Positions 10,830-52,211 of a stretch of 64,000 bases of DNA are shown here, in pieces. The notes under the pieces are model-generated. The model was not told the origin of the DNA. It was given only the letters and a program-made list of their open reading frames with translations, and made no database searches. Made by a program: the position numbers and the translations under genes. Each line of letters starts with the position of its first letter. The first letter of the stretch is position 1. The stretch covers positions 1 to 64,000 of the forward strand of contig JANYLR010000035.1 of the NCBI GenBank assembly GCA_025363715.1. The letters run 5' to 3'. The DNA is from Holophagaceae bacterium (GTDB lineage Bacteria; Acidobacteriota; Holophagae; Holophagales; Holophagaceae).

Positions 10830-12827
10830 TCAGCGCCAAGCCTGGACGCCGGTGCTCTTCTTTTCCTCCCGGGGCTTTTCCTTGGGCGGCTCTGGTTTTG
10901 GCGCCGGCCGGTTGTCCCGCTCAACCTTGGCAGGTGGTTCGGGCCGGCGTTCGGCCTCTGGGCGCGGCCTTGGTTCCGTGGGCCGGGCCCAAGGGGCGGG
11001 CTCGGGCCGCCGTTCCTCGACCCTGGGCCGGGGTTCCATGGGACGCTCCCTGGGCATCGGTTCAGGACGGCGCTCCTCGGCCCTGGGGCGCGGCTCCACA
11101 GGACGCTCCCTGGGTGCTGGATCTGGTCGACGTTCTTCAATCCTCGGCTTCGGTTCCATCGGGCGCTCCCGGGGCACCACATCAGGCCGTCGCACTTCAA
11201 CCTGGGGCCGGGGTTCCATCGGACGCTCCCTGGGTGCTGGATCCGGCCGGCGTTCCTCGACCCTCGGCCTCGGTTCCATGGGGCGCTCCCGGGGCACCAC
11301 GTCAGGCCGTCGCACTTCGGCCTGGGGCCGGGGTTCCATCGGACGTTCCCGGGGTACGAGGTGTTCCGGGGTGCCGGCACGGCCGCGGTCCTCGAAGGGC
11401 CGACGAACGGATCCGCCGCCCTGGGGAGGCAGACCCGCGCCCGTGGGCGGGGTCAGGTCACGCCGGAGAATGACCCGGCCCGTGGTGGTCTGGGCCTGGC
11501 GCTCGTAGGCCCCCATCCGCTCCCGGTGCACGTCCCGCTGGAAGGCCGTGTGGATCTCGGTGGGGTTGCGGAATTCCCGGGTCGAAACGATCAGCGGACT
11601 GCGCTGCCAGGGGGCGTTGAGATCCCGGTCGCCACCGGTCCAGGCCCGGCCGCCGGGGCCGCTGTTGAAGGTCCGGATGACGTGGATATCCGAGTGCATC
11701 CGCCGATGGATCTGGGGCTCGTTGATGAAGTTGATGGAGACCACGTTCCAGGCGTAGCCGCCGCCCCAGGCGCCGTAGCCCCAGTGGCAGGGCGTGTTGT
11801 AGTAGCCGAGGGGTGCCCACCCGCAATAGCCGGGCGTGTTGTTCCAGGCCACCCAGGCGGGGCTGTAGTGAACGCCGGGAATCCAGCACCAGCCCAGGCC
11901 CACGCCCCAATTCCAGCGACCATGATGGTAGGCGACGTAGGCCCAGGGTTCCTCCGACACCCAGGTCATGCCGCCAGCGTAGGGCGCCCAGCGGCCCTGG
12001 TAGTAGGGCCGCCAGTCCTCGGCGACGCCAGCGGGCTGCCAGACATCGCCGAACTCCTCCGTGTGGATCCAGCGGCCGTGGCCGTCGAGTTCATCGGCGT
12101 AGTAGCGGAGTTCGGAAGGAACCCGGTCCCAGCTCTCGCCCCGCTGGACCACCATGGCCCGATCACTCCAGCGGTCGAAGTCATCGCCGTCATAGGTGTT
12201 GTAGCTGCGCACGCGATCCAGGCCGTCCTGGGGGCTATACACCGTCAGCCGCTCGCCGGCACTCACCCGGGCCTCATCCCGCTCGTTGGCGAAGGCCACC
12301 CGGCCGGTCTGGACCTTGAGGCGCACCAGCCGGTCCCGCTCGGCCTCGACGGTGAAGGACCCCTTGTTGAAGCAGGTGGCGGTGCCCGAAGGCGTGTCCA
12401 CCCGGAAGCGGGCCTCGGACTGTCCCCCCAGCACGACGCGCAGGCGGCCATAGTCGAGGCGGAGCAGGACCTGCTTCTCGCCCTTCCGGTCGGTGAAGAG
12501 GGTCGCCACCGTGAACCGGGTGGCGCCGCCAAACGCGACGCGGGTGCCATCGCCCAGTTGCAGAACACCACGGCCGCGGCTTTCCACAACATCGCCCTCG
12601 GCGATGGGTGTGCCCCGGCTGAGCCGTTCATCCAACTCGCCCTTGCGAACTTGGACCTCACCCTCCAGGGCCCGCACCATGGCGTAACGCTCGGGCGCCT
12701 CGCCCTGGTAGGAGTCCTCGTCGTAGGAGCCGGGGGCGCTGGTAGGCGGGGCCTGGGGGGCGGCCATGAGGACCACCGCGGGACAAAGCAGCGCGGCCAA
12801 TCGGGAGTGGGAATAGAGCGCGTTCAT
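10830..12827 (-). CDS. Secreted FecR/DUF6600-type protein with tandem repeat tail
   Basis: 665 residues. N-terminal signal peptide (about 1-22); residues ~45-190 form a FecR-like beta-rich domain (R-A-L-E-G-E-V-Q-V-R, V-D-T-P-S-G-T-A, T-G-R-V-A-F); residues ~235-370 are extremely Trp/Tyr/Gly-rich and match the DUF6600 style. After about residue 490 the chain becomes seven head-to-tail 20-residue units built on P-R-E-R-P-M-E-P-R-P, then a Pro/Lys/Glu tail. It is probably exported and surface- or wall-associated; no enzymatic motif is seen. The start at 12825-12827 has GGAGG nearby. FecR domains in periplasmic proteins without a sigma partner are common; no sigma gene adjoins this one. Confidence 0.8.
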   Translation of the reverse strand: MNALYSHSRLAALLCPAVVLMAAPQAPPTSAPGSYDEDSYQGEAPERYAMVRALEGEVQVRKGELDERLSRGTPIAEGDVVESRGRGVLQLGDGTRVAFGGATRFTVATLFTDRKGEKQVLLRLDYGRLRVVLGGQSEARFRVDTPSGTATCFNKGSFTVEAERDRLVRLKVQTGRVAFANERDEARVSAGERLTVYSPQDGLDRVRSYNTYDGDDFDRWSDRAMVVQRGESWDRVPSELRYYADELDGHGRWIHTEEFGDVWQPAGVAEDWRPYYQGRWAPYAGGMTWVSEEPWAYVAYHHGRWNWGVGLGWCWIPGVHYSPAWVAWNNTPGYCGWAPLGYYNTPCHWGYGAWGGGYAWNVVSINFINEPQIHRRMHSDIHVIRTFNSGPGGRAWTGGDRDLNAPWQRSPLIVSTREFRNPTEIHTAFQRDVHRERMGAYERQAQTTTGRVILRRDLTPPTGAGLPPQGGGSVRRPFEDRGRAGTPEHLVPRERPMEPRPQAEVRRPDVVPRERPMEPRPRVEERRPDPAPRERPMEPRPQVEVRRPDVVPRERPMEPKPRIEERRPDPAPRERPVEPRPRAEERRPEPMPRERPMEPRPRVEERRPEPAPWARPTEPRPRPEAERRPEPPAKVERDNRPAPKPEPPKEKPREEKKSTGVQAWR
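10938..11357 (-). repeat. Seven tandem 60-bp coding repeats
   Basis: Seven in-frame 60-bp units encode the 20-residue repeats of the FecR-domain protein. Units alternate between two subtypes, one ending E-V-R-R-P-D-V and one ending E-E-R-R-P-D/E-P, which suggests duplication of a 120-bp pair. Copy number is likely to vary between strains. Confidence 0.9.
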
Positions 12828-12919
12828 GGGCCCTCCGCGGAAGTGGATGCCGAATCCCAGGGGATCGGTTCCACGGGGCAGTACAGCCAGGGCCGTGCCA
12901 AAGGGCGGGCTCCATGCTC

Positions 12920-12940
12920 CAGGCTTCAGGCTCCTGGCTT
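12920..12940. repeat. 7-bp repeat (CAGGCTT family), copy 1
   Basis: Three imperfect heptamers, CAGGCTT, CAGGCTC and CTGGCTT, lie seven bases beyond the stop codon of the gene at 12947. The same unit occurs at 43135-43176 and 51363-51390, each time at the stop codon of a minus-strand gene. Confidence 0.7.
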
Positions 12941-43047: not shown

Positions 43048-43146
43048 CTGTCCCCCCTCTTCAAGCTCGTGCTGCTGGCCTGGCTGGTGCTGGGGCCGCT
43101 GGGCCTATGGCTGCGGCGCCGCAGCCGCCTGAACCCTAGAGCCTGA
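43048..43146 (+). CDS. Possible 32-residue membrane peptide
   Basis: A short frame opens at CTG 43048 after GAGGAGC and encodes L-S-P-L-F-K-L-V-L-L-A-W-L-V-L-G-P-L-G-L, then W-L-R-R-R-S-R, a textbook single-helix peptide with a positive end. There is no ATG, GTG or TTG at the right place, so a CTG start would be needed. The stop lies in the 14-bp repeat that follows. Speculative. Confidence 0.22.
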   Translation: MSPLFKLVLLAWLVLGPLGLWLRRRSRLNPRA

Positions 43147-43176
43147 AGCCTAGAGCCTGAATCCTAGAGCCTGGAG
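43135..43176. repeat. 7/14-bp repeat (CAGGCTT family), copy 2
   Basis: Three head-to-tail 14-bp units, CCTAGAGCCTGAAG and two near-identical copies, each two heptamers of the form CCTAGAG/CCTGAAG. The stop codon (TAG) of the NtrY-like gene lies inside the third unit. Confidence 0.85.
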
Positions 43177-45275
43177 CCGCCAGCCCTCGGCAGCACCAGG
43201 CTGAAGCGGCTGCCGTTGGACAGGGGTTCGTAGCGGACATCGCCGCCGTGATCCTGGGCGATGCGGCGGACGATGGCCAGGCCCAGGCCCGTGCCCTTGC
43301 GTTTGGTGGAGAAGTAGGGCTCGAAGAGCCGCTCCCGATCCGCCTCGGGCACCCCGGAGCCGTCATCCACCACCTCGAAGCGCAGGCTATCCAGCTCCTG
43401 GGCCAGGGACAGCCGGACGAGGCCCCGGCCCCCCTCCTCGGCCCGGGCGCCCCGGCCCTCTAGGGCCGCCAGGGCATTGTCCACGTAGTTGATGAGGGCC
43501 CGCTTCACCATGTCCCCGTCCCAGAGGGCCGAGACCGGTGCCTCCGGCAGCTGCAGCTCCCAGTGGATCTCCGGGTGGTTGGGGCCGTACAGGGCGGCCA
43601 CCTGGCGCAGCAGGTCCGCCGGATCGCAGGGCGAGAACTGAGGCACAGGCAGCCGGGCGAAGCGGCTGAAGCTATCCACCAGCCGGGACAGGCTGGCCAC
43701 CTCCCCGAGGATGATCTCGGCCCCCTCCTGCACGGCGGCCGGATCCAGGCGGCCCTCCCGGCTGCGGCGCAGCAGGCGCTGGGCCGTGAGCTGGATGGGC
43801 GTCAGGGGGTTCTTCACCTCGTGGGCCATGCGCCGGGCCACTTCCTGCCAGGCGGCCCGCTTCTCCGCCTGGGCCAGCAGGGAGAGATCCTCCAGCACCG
43901 CCAGCACGCCGCCTCCCTGGAGGGGTTCGAGGATGGCCCGCACGGGCCGGCCCTCGCCCTCGCTGCCCAGGCGTAGCTCCTCCAGCACGCCCCGCTGGGT
44001 ATCGCGGACGGCCGCCAGCAGCGCCGGCAGGCGGCCCAGGCGCGGCAGCGCGGCCACCGTCTCCCAGCGGGCCTCGGTGGGATCGAAGGCTTCCAGCCCC
44101 AGCCAGGACCGGGCGGCGGCGTTGAAGGTGCGCAGCTCGCCATCGGCCCGCCAGCTCATGACCCCCACCGGCAGCGCCGCCAGCAGCTGGTCCAGGTAGG
44201 CCCGCTGCTGCTCCAGGCGGCTGGCCTGGGCTTCGATGGCCGCCCGGTTGGTCTTCAGATCCCGGGTCATGGCATTGAAGGTCTGGGCCAGGAAGGCCAG
44301 CTCGTCCTCCCCCATCACCGGCAGCTCCACGTCGAGGTCGCCGCTGCCCACCCGCTGGGCGGCCTTGGCCAGGGCCCGGATGGGCTCGCTCAGCGACTTC
44401 GCCAGGGCCAGACCCGACCACACCGCGAAGAAGAGCGTCAGCAGCGTCAGGAACAGGAAGGTGCTCTGGGGCAGGGTCTCCAGGGTGTCCCGGTTGGCCC
44501 GGATCTGCTGGTTCTCCTTGAAGCGCTGCTCCAGCGCCAGCACCCGGTCCAGCTTCTCCCGGGGCATGAAGACGCCGATGGCCCAGGCACCATCCCCCCG
44601 GGGCACCACCCGCAGCAGCCATAGCCCCTCCGGGCGTTCCTGCTGGCTGTCCCCGGCGAGGGCCTCGAGGTTCGGCGGCGGGCAGTCCGGGCAAAGATCC
44701 AGGGCCTTGACGCCAGCCTCGCCGCGTCCACCAAAGGTAGCCACGAGATCCAGCCCCGCGGCGCTGCGGATGGCCTGGGGTTCCGCCGAGGCGGAGTCCG
44801 ACAGGCGTCCGGCCCCGAAGTCCAGGCGCGCCTTGGCGGCGGCCCGCAGATCCTCGGCCATCTTCTGGCCATCGCGGATGGCGACTTCCGTTTCCGGGCT
44901 GAACCAGCGCTCCACGTTCTTGTTGATGAAGTTCCGGCCCACCATGAACAGGATCAGGCTGGGCACGATGCCCACGATGAAGAGCGTCAGTACCATGCGG
45001 GTGCGCAGCCGGGAGCCCAGGAGGCCGCTCTTGCGCTCAAAGTAGAGCTTGGCGATGCTGCGGGCCACGATGAAGAGCAGGGTGCCGATGGCCAGCACGT
45101 TGGACAGGCCCAGGGCCACCAGGGCCCAGCGGGAGGGCGCGTCCAGACCCCCTTCGGCGATGCGGTTCCCCACGGTCTTGTAGGCCAGGATGATCATGAG
45201 GATCAGCACGCCCAGGCCCACGGCCACATAGAGGCGCGTCAGCTCGGGGTGGCGCTTGACTGGAGGTTTCGGCAT
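43164..45275 (-). CDS. NtrY-like membrane sensor histidine kinase
   Basis: 703 residues. Three N-terminal membrane helices (about 12-32, 50-72, 95-115), an extracytoplasmic stretch, a fourth helix (~270-292), HAMP, a PAS-like domain (~360-450), dimerisation motif [12 protein letters not shown] with the phospho-His, and ATPase motifs N-Y-V-D-N-A-L, D-D-G-S-G-V-P and G-T-G-L-G-L-A. This is the NtrY layout; NtrY works with NtrX in nitrogen or redox control, and the regulator at 23736 is a candidate partner. Start at 45273-45275, divergent from the methyltransferase with 43 bp between. Confidence 0.9.
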
Positions 45276-49595: not shown

Positions 49596-50063
49596 TCAGG
49601 TCCGGGTTGGCTGCAGGGCCTCGCCGGCGCGTTGGAGGTGGGCTTGCTGGTGGTCCGGGGATTCGCCCACCAAGGTGTCGAAGGTCACGGTCGCGAGGTG
49701 GCGCTGCAGCAGGTCGGTGGCGTGGCCCCAGGCCCGCTGGACCAGGCAGCCGCCCCCGAAGATGCAGGGCTTTCCGCCTTCCAGGCAGGCGTTCAGCACC
49801 ACGCCCCCCTCCACCGCGTTGAGGATGTCCAGCAGCGAGATCTGCGAGGCGGGCCGGGCGAGGCTGATGCCGCCGCCGGTGCCGCGGAGGGTGCTGAGGA
49901 TGCCCGCCTTCACCAGATCGCCCACGATGCGCCGGGTGAAGGGTGCGGGCAGCAGCCGGGTCTTCGAGATCTCCGGGATGGACACCCGGGTGCCAGGCGC
50001 CAGACAGGCGAGGTGCAGCACCAATCGGGCCGCGTAATCCGACTGCCTGGAAATACCGATCAT
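49596..50063 (-). CDS. Rrf2-family regulator with three-Cys motif (1)
   Basis: 155 residues. Winged helix-turn-helix of the Rrf2 family (S-D-Y-A-A-R-L-V-L-H-L-A, then R-G-T-G-G-G-I-S-L-A-R-P) and the cluster-binding motif C-x6-C-x5-C (C-L-E-G-G-K-P-C ... G-C), close to the C-x5-C-x5-C of IscR and NsrR. Such proteins sense NO, oxidation or iron-sulfur status with a [2Fe-2S] or [4Fe-4S] cluster. ATG 50061-50063 follows GAGGGTCC. A promoter with a palindrome overlapping it is at 50090, consistent with autoregulation. Confidence 0.88.
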   Translation of the reverse strand: MIGISRQSDYAARLVLHLACLAPGTRVSIPEISKTRLLPAPFTRRIVGDLVKAGILSTLRGTGGGISLARPASQISLLDILNAVEGGVVLNACLEGGKPCIFGGGCLVQRAWGHATDLLQRHLATVTFDTLVGESPDHQQAHLQRAGEALQPTRT

Positions 50064-50089
50064 GGACCCTCGGGGTTGTCTGGTTCCCA

Positions 50090-50117
50090 ACATTACTCTT
50101 TTCGTAATCTTGGTCAA
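50090..50117 (-). promoter_or_regulatory. Promoter and palindromic operator of the first Rrf2 gene
   Basis: On the minus strand TTGACC (50112-50117) and TAATGT (50090-50095) are separated by 16 bp. Between and over them lies ATTAC-N7-GTAAT (50092-50108), a perfect inverted repeat that would place a bound regulator on the -10 box. The start site would be near 50083, about 20 bp before the ATG. Confidence 0.7.
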
Positions 50118-50406: not shown

Positions 50407-50904
50407 CTAGGCCAGCCGCGTCTTCGGCTCGGAGTCGCGGTTGGCGCCGCGCACGCGGCCGGTGGCCTGCACCCGCAGGTGGGCGGGCTGGTGGGCCTCG
50501 CTGCGCCGGGCCAGGGTATCGAAGCGCACGGAGGCCAGGTACTCATCCAGCACCTGGGTGGCATCCACCCACACGGACTGCACCGGGCAGGCCGACGCCA
50601 GCGGGCAGACCCGGCGGTCGCTCACGCAGTGGTTGAGGGCGATGCCGCCCTCCATGGCATGGACCACCTCGCCCAGGGAAAGGTCCGCCGCGGGCCGGGC
50701 CAGGCTCACGCCGCCGCCGGAGCCCCGGGTGGTGGCCAGGATGCCCGCCTTCACCAGCTCGCCCACGATGCGCCGGACGAATTCCAGTGGCAGCATCCGG
50801 TGCTTGGCGATATCGGCGATGGGCACCCGGGCCCCGGGGGCCAGGCAGGCCAGGTGCAGCACCACGCGGGCCGCGTAATCCGTCTGTCTGGAGATGCCGA
50901 GCAT
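50407..50904 (-). CDS. Rrf2-family regulator with three-Cys motif (2)
   Basis: 165 residues; clearly a paralogue of the upstream protein (both start M-x-G-I-S-R-Q-x-D-Y-A-A-R). Winged helix motif R-G-S-G-G-G-V-S-L-A-R-P and cluster ligands C-V-S-D-R-R-V-C-P-L-A-S-A-C (C-x6-C-x5-C). The C-terminal ~35 residues are basic and unlike copy 1. It has its own promoter (50928) and probably senses the same kind of signal but binds a different operator. Confidence 0.88.
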   Translation of the reverse strand: MLGISRQTDYAARVVLHLACLAPGARVPIADIAKHRMLPLEFVRRIVGELVKAGILATTRGSGGGVSLARPAADLSLGEVVHAMEGGIALNHCVSDRRVCPLASACPVQSVWVDATQVLDEYLASVRFDTLARRSEAHQPAHLRVQATGRVRGANRDSEPKTRLA

Positions 50905-50970: not shown

Positions 50971-51339
50971 CTATGGGCACACATGGCGGAAGAGGGCCGC
51001 GTCCTCACCATCGGGGTAGTAGCCGGACCGCAGGCCGCAGCGCCGCCAGCCGCAGGCTCCATAGAGCCGGATGGCCGCGGCGTTGGACACCCGCACCTCC
51101 AGGTAGAGGGTCTCCAGCCCCCGCCGGGCCAGCTCGTCCTGGCAGGCCTCCAGCAAGCGGCGCCCCAGGCCCCCGCCCCGGTGAGCCGGATCCACGGCGA
51201 TGCGCAGCAGCTCCGCCTCGCCCGCGGCGGGAATGCAGGCCCAGCGGGCGAAGGCCACTTCAGGGATCAGCCACAGGGCCTCGTGCTCCGCCGGGGCCTT
51301 CCAGGCCACCCCGAAGGCCGTGCGATCCAGCCGCAGCAC
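50971..51339 (-). pseudogene. rimI: rimI (ribosomal protein acetyltransferase), start apparently disrupted
   Basis: The C-terminal ~120 residues are an intact GNAT domain: L-L-R-I-A-V-D-P-A-H-R-G-G-G-L-G-R-R-L-L (acetyl-CoA loop), then R-V-S-N-A-A-A-I-R-L-Y and S-G-Y-Y-P-D-G, the usual RimI end. The only in-frame start is GTG 51339, which lacks a ribosome site and would drop the first beta strand and helix. Upstream, the same frame continues open as R-L-Q-E-A-G-E-A-L-P-D-W-V-L-R-L-D, a proper GNAT N-terminus, up to three CAGGCTT heptamers; the ATG that overlaps the tsaB stop is out of frame by two bases. With one heptamer instead of three the ATG would be in frame and give a normal RimI of ~141 residues. 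Confidence 0.75.
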
Positions 51340-51362
51340 CCAGTCCGGGAGCGCCTCGCCCG

Positions 51363-51390
51363 CCTCCTGAAGCCTGAAGCCTGAAGCCTG
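51363..51390 (-). repeat. 7-bp repeat (CAGGCTT family), copy 3, in the rimI start region
   Basis: Three exact CAGGCTT heptamers plus CAGGAGG on the minus strand, starting two bases after the ATG that overlaps the tsaB stop. Because 7 is not a multiple of 3, gain or loss of units shifts the rimI frame. Confidence 0.9.
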
Positions 51391-51391
51391 G

Positions 51392-52102
51392 TCATCGCGC
51401 CACGCCCTTCCGCAGCGCCTCGGACAGGTGGGCGGCAGCCAGGGGGAAGTTCACCGCGGCGTCCGTCTCCCGCAGGTAGAAGGGCACCAGGGGGGCCTCC
51501 GGTGGTCGTTCAGATACGCGCCGCGCCAGGGCCACCAGGCCCGCCAGGGTGGCCCCGCCTTCATCCGCCAGGGTGATCCGCCGGTGCCCGGGAAGAACGG
51601 CTTCCACCCTGGGCGCGAAAGCTTCCGGCGCCCACCAGGGCTCGGCGCCGATGCGCTCCCCCAGGGTCGCCAGCGGCTGCTTGGCGGCAGGCTCGGTCGG
51701 GCCCGCTTCCCAGCGCTGGTGGAAGGCCTCGCCGCGCTGGCCATCCAACAGGATCCAGAACGGCCCCGCCACGCCCGCCTGGCCCCTGACTTGGTATAGC
51801 GCCTCGGCCCGCAGCTCGAAGGCCGAGAAGCCCCAGGTGGGCAGGCCCGCGAGGCCGAAGCCCTCCGCCGTGGCCACGCCGATGCGCAGGCTGGTGAAGC
51901 CCCCCGGGCCCAGACAGGCCGCCACGCCGGAGAGCTGCCGCGGGGTGCCTCCCGCCTCCAGCATCAGCTCGTTCAGGGTGGGGAGCAGCCGCTCGCTGTG
52001 CCCCCGGCCCACGCCCGATAGCACCCGCCGCGCCCAGACCCGCTCGCCCTGGAGCAGCGCCAGGTGCAGGATCTCCGTGGTGGTGTCGAGGGCCAGCAGC
52101 AT
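51392..52102 (-). CDS. tsaB: TsaB: tRNA threonylcarbamoyladenosine modification factor
   Basis: 236 residues. Partner of TsaD in making t6A37 on ANN-decoding tRNAs. Motifs: L-L-A-L-D-T-T-T-E at the N-terminus, [10 protein letters not shown] (the TsaB His-Ser-Glu), and [13 protein letters not shown]. Start at 52100-52102. The stop TGA overlaps a would-be ATG of rimI, the classic tsaB-rimI order. Confidence 0.93.
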
Positions 52103-52211
52103 GGGGCCAGTGTATCGGGGCGCCGGGCGGGGTCCCTGGCCCCGGATGGAATTCATCCAGCCGGGCGGGCTCGCCGATAATTACGGTGTTGGGATTCTTT
52201 CGAGGTTTTTT

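Follow-up and report, generated by a model that had tools for sequence, protein, structure and literature searches.

The GGGAATC and GGGGAYT heptamers of Xanthomonas and Nostoc are dispersed, mostly intergenic repeats that occur singly or as inverted pairs, vary in unit number, and follow stop codons on the coding strand or precede start codons on the non-coding strand (PMC4692102). Their authors judged the Xanthomonas heptamers unlikely to be involved in phase variation (PMC4692102). In Beggiatoaceae and cyanobacteria, direct repeats of TAACTGA form many short intergenic heptamer arrays, some of which overlap ORF ends, and are found upstream of starts, with stop codons in all frames (PMC4679880). 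Heptanucleotide tracts are also known from contingency loci of Haemophilus influenzae, in the hmw1A/hmw2A promoters and, as an AACAACC tract, in a TonB-dependent receptor (PMC2651432). Known tracts of this contingency type comprise approximately 6–38 units, are variable between strains, and mostly affect surface proteins (PMC2651432).

Here, we describe a family of heptamer arrays in the genome of a Geothrix-like Holophagaceae bacterium from soil or sediment (G000; 84%-complete draft in 121 contigs, and the single genome of its species sampled), which belongs to a genus whose named members include Geothrix limicola and Geothrix rubra. The heptamer CAGGCTT has 141 overlapping matches in this genome, compared with 3 for the reversed control, and forms at least 35 separate arrays. 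Among 47 genomes of the genus, many CAGGCTT copies were found only in G000, G009, and G014, with some in G036; most of the remaining species have few or none. Array positions were sampled in 20 stretches of G000 plus the 64,000-nucleotide stretch of contig under study (hereafter the window), with genes called by a home-made gene caller (88.7% coding). All 32 period-7 arrays in the sampled own-genome stretches were located outside called genes. Many arrays adjoin stop codons or starts, and many form inverted pairs flanking a terminator-like core; of the 21 perfect arrays, 19 have CAGGCTT pointing away from the gene closest to them. At four orthologous array sites, both unit sequence and array length vary between species, and different units are used in other species; G017 and G029, for example, have GGAGTCT, likewise in inverted pairs.

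Heptamer arrays of CAGGCTT and its variants are present at further gene ends in the window (12909–12939 and 43127–43185) and in the other G000 stretches (L120–L139), often as inverted pairs around a terminator-like hairpin. Long arrays were also observed at contig ends, namely the end of G000 contig C3 (L121) and the start of G009 contig C7; the family thus interrupts assembly, and the number of longer arrays is probably underestimated. Decamer arrays, CACGGATGAA and CGGTGATGCA among them, recur in other species of the genus, namely G019, G001, G020, and G015 (L156, L157, L163, and L165). Those in L156 and L163 are inverted pairs lying close together, and the decamer arrays seem to be elements of the same type built on a 10-bp unit. 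Elsewhere in the window, a tandem array with a 60/120-bp unit (2.9–5.8 copies) spans 11005–11355.

The CAGGCTT family acts like the Xanthomonas/Nostoc heptamers in that its arrays are dispersed, over-represented outside genes, and fixed in orientation, with the 5′ side nearest the ORF (the 19 of 21 arrays above). However, it has GG doublets only and does not belong to the G-quadruplex type, the sequence of its unit drifts from species to species, and one of its arrays lies in a coding leader, where it shifts the reading frame. Without GGG tracts, we do not count it as a member of the GGGAATC type. CAGGCTT likewise resembles TAACTGA in forming many short intergenic arrays, but the unit differs and CAGGCTT has no stop codon in any frame, and is therefore translatable.

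The array in the coding leader is located at the tsaB/rimI junction, where the minus strand reads ATG ACC AGGCTTCAGGCTTCAGGCTTCAGGAGGCGGGC. The tsaB gene (51392–52156, minus strand; TIGR03725, 114.7 bits against a cut-off of 69.3) ends in TGA, which overlaps an ATG (ATGA; 51393–51395, minus strand). Right behind this stop, and within the RimI leader, three CAGGCTT units plus CAGG (3.57 perfect units; 51366–51390, minus strand) point away from tsaB, following the orientation rule of the family. A search of the window found exact CAGGCTTCAGGCTT at the rimI array only; with up to two mismatches, there were seven matches against 0.58 expected, a number reached by 0 of 100 shuffles. The initial annotation had proposed that three CAGGCTT units behind the tsaB-overlapping ATG leave RimI out of frame, and this was borne out: the distance from ATG 51395 to GTG 51339 is 56 nt, placing the ATG frame two phases off the RimI frame. 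In the three-unit state, the ATG opens an out-of-frame ORF of 42 aa (51267–51395, minus strand). The RimI frame itself is already open ahead of the array, and from array to stop (50971–51390, minus strand) it encodes 139 residues that include β1 and the whole GNAT core. It contains no ATG, GTG, or TTG from the array-upstream sequence to GTG 51339, which leaves this GTG as the sole in-frame common start, for an ORF of 122 aa (50971–51339, minus strand) that would be without β1.

Comparison with 33 Geothrix/Holophagaceae relatives with a readable tsaB/rimI junction identified the overlapping ATG as the ancestral RimI start: in all 33, the ATG or GTG that overlaps tsaB shares the RimI frame. Measured from this start to a conserved Trp, the leader has a length divisible by three in every relative, being 60 nt in 22 of the 33 and 48, 51, 54, 57, 75, 102, or 117 nt in the remainder, and selection holds it in frame. 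In G000, the leader is 53 nt, exactly one heptamer below the common length. Regarding the repeat numbers suggested to restore the frame, the four-unit state (leader of 60 nt) fits the relatives, whereas the one-unit state (39 nt) would be shorter than the shortest leader observed (48 nt). Significant period-7 sequence made of other heptamers is present in the rimI leaders of G002, G032, G004, and G024, in frame each time. Three near relatives carry in-frame insertions of 42–57 bp in the RimI leader that contain a palindrome, CGGGAAACGCAGGCGTTTCCCG in G009 and G014 and a diverged form of it in G012. The palindrome was rejected as the marker of one dispersed element, with only a handful of related sites and none in G000.

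Outside the leader, rimI of G000 is intact, with 0 changes at 69 columns conserved at ≥90%. Old decay was rejected on this basis, in support of the proposal that any decay would be very recent. Pairwise dN/dS of rimI is approximately 0.3–0.5. With the same outgroups, dN of the G000 gene is modestly above that of its neighbors (0.16–0.17 vs. ~0.11), which could reflect an older relaxation instead of a very recent event. The open frame is the best RimI candidate in its own genome, and all 25 aligned orthologues match TIGR01575 with E below 0.001. Since its own score of 79.4 bits falls just below the curated cut-off of 86.4, the name RimI is based on the fold, on orthology, and on synteny with tsaB. 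An AlphaFold2 model of the 139-aa open frame (mean pLDDT 90.7) is a complete GNAT, and its top Foldseek matches are 5isv (E. coli RimI; the best) and 2cnm, with a probability of 1.00 and TM of ~0.8. In this model, β1 (residues 6–8) is encoded just behind the array, α1 comprises residues 16–26, and GTG 51339 corresponds to residue 18. We infer that this RimI would acetylate the N terminus of ribosomal protein S18. Downstream of rimI are two adjacent similar genes (49596–50117 and 50407–50904) that cross-match in relatives and appear, by eye, to encode Rrf2-type regulators.

Taken together, we consider it reasonably probable that an array of a mutable repeat family lies in the RimI leader and that the genome consensus represents a one-unit-short, RimI-off allele. 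A dispersed, fast-evolving heptamer family that usually occupies gene boundaries would have placed an array directly behind the tsaB stop, and because rimI starts at the ATG overlapping that stop, the array would be translated as the N-terminal leader of RimI. The rimI array is, in other words, an ordinary member of an intergenic family sitting where intergenic space is absent, so that it is read as protein. With one unit fewer, ribosomes reinitiating at the ATG would, judging from the sequence, produce the out-of-frame peptide of 42 aa, with full-length RimI scarce or absent. The likely route would be a recent loss of one unit via slippage, now fixed or common in the sampled population. Adding back one unit would recreate the common leader length, so that the allele should be revertible in principle. 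The frame break is probably a recent slip and not a tuned genetic switch.

The initial annotation had offered a phase-variable or broken start, and reversible phase variation of rimI is possible from the sequence. In its full form, rimI would be a true contingency gene in which frequent gain and loss of units maintains both on cells (1, 4, or 7 units) and off cells within a single population. One feature of SSR loci is indeed present, namely a repeat tract in the reading frame, close to the start, with a unit length indivisible by three; moreover, the body of the gene is undamaged and the repeat family has proved mutable from species to species. As in the H. influenzae loci, the number of heptamer units can set reading frame or expression. 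However, the tract has 3.6 units compared with ~6–38 in H. influenzae heptanucleotide tracts (PMC2651432), is known from one genome, and concerns a ribosomal-protein acetyltransferase, a housekeeping modifier and not a surface structure. The leaders of relatives are always in frame, with no off state sampled, and the Xanthomonas heptamers were judged unlikely to serve phase variation (PMC4692102). We regard a true contingency gene as unlikely, and a literature search found no report of rimI phase variation. The ancestral ATG, a leader exactly one heptamer short, and the intact gene body support part of the original proposal, while the three-unit tract is short and CAGGCTT occurs genome-wide and is not a device specific to rimI.

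An assembly or consensus artefact, in which the true sequence would contain four units and keep RimI in frame, appears quite unlikely. It would account for a RimI protein without decay, and long arrays of this family do break contigs, as at the end of C3 and the start of C7 mentioned above; nonetheless, individual reads from any of the common platforms cover a tract of 25–32 bp. General indel error is ruled out, as no further frameshift was found in the genes compared with relatives across ~23 kb of syntenic window sequence, and this absence of other indels also argues against an artefact at rimI. Of similarly low probability is the suggestion that the heptamer family has been co-opted into the RimI leader as a slow, reversible on/off switch for modifying ribosomes, in which case the in-frame heptamer-bearing leaders in other species of Geothrix may be locked-on versions.

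Very unlikely, in our estimation, is translation of RimI from GTG 51339, with the leader dispensed with and the array a harmless 5′ sequence. This GTG is the first in-frame start and has GAGG and AGGAGG 14 and 23 nt upstream, respectively, but initiation there would, according to the predicted structure, delete β1 and the first residues of α1, and all relatives retain the longer start. Most relatives likewise have this GTG as a Val codon, behind a similar upstream sequence, and nothing marks it as a start. Ribosomal −1 frameshifting inside the array or at AGG AGG, linking the ATG frame to RimI, is highly implausible despite the tandem AGG codons and Shine–Dalgarno-like AGGAGG just behind the array, as no X-XXY-YYZ slippery heptamer was seen in the stretch and AGGAGG derives from sequence common to in-frame relatives (GGAGGCGGGCGAGG).

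With the one-unit-short, RimI-off allele as the preferred reading, the junction illustrates how mobile-looking microsatellites from between genes can come to lie within coding sequence where genes overlap, and how a single heptamer unit can turn off a housekeeping ribosome modifier. The wider repeat family is a more solid new finding than phase variation. Our literature search found no report of heptamer arrays in Geothrix, and the family is apparently undescribed. It follows the same positional rules as the Xanthomonas/Nostoc repeats, which suggests that they spread in a common way or have a common role at gene ends.
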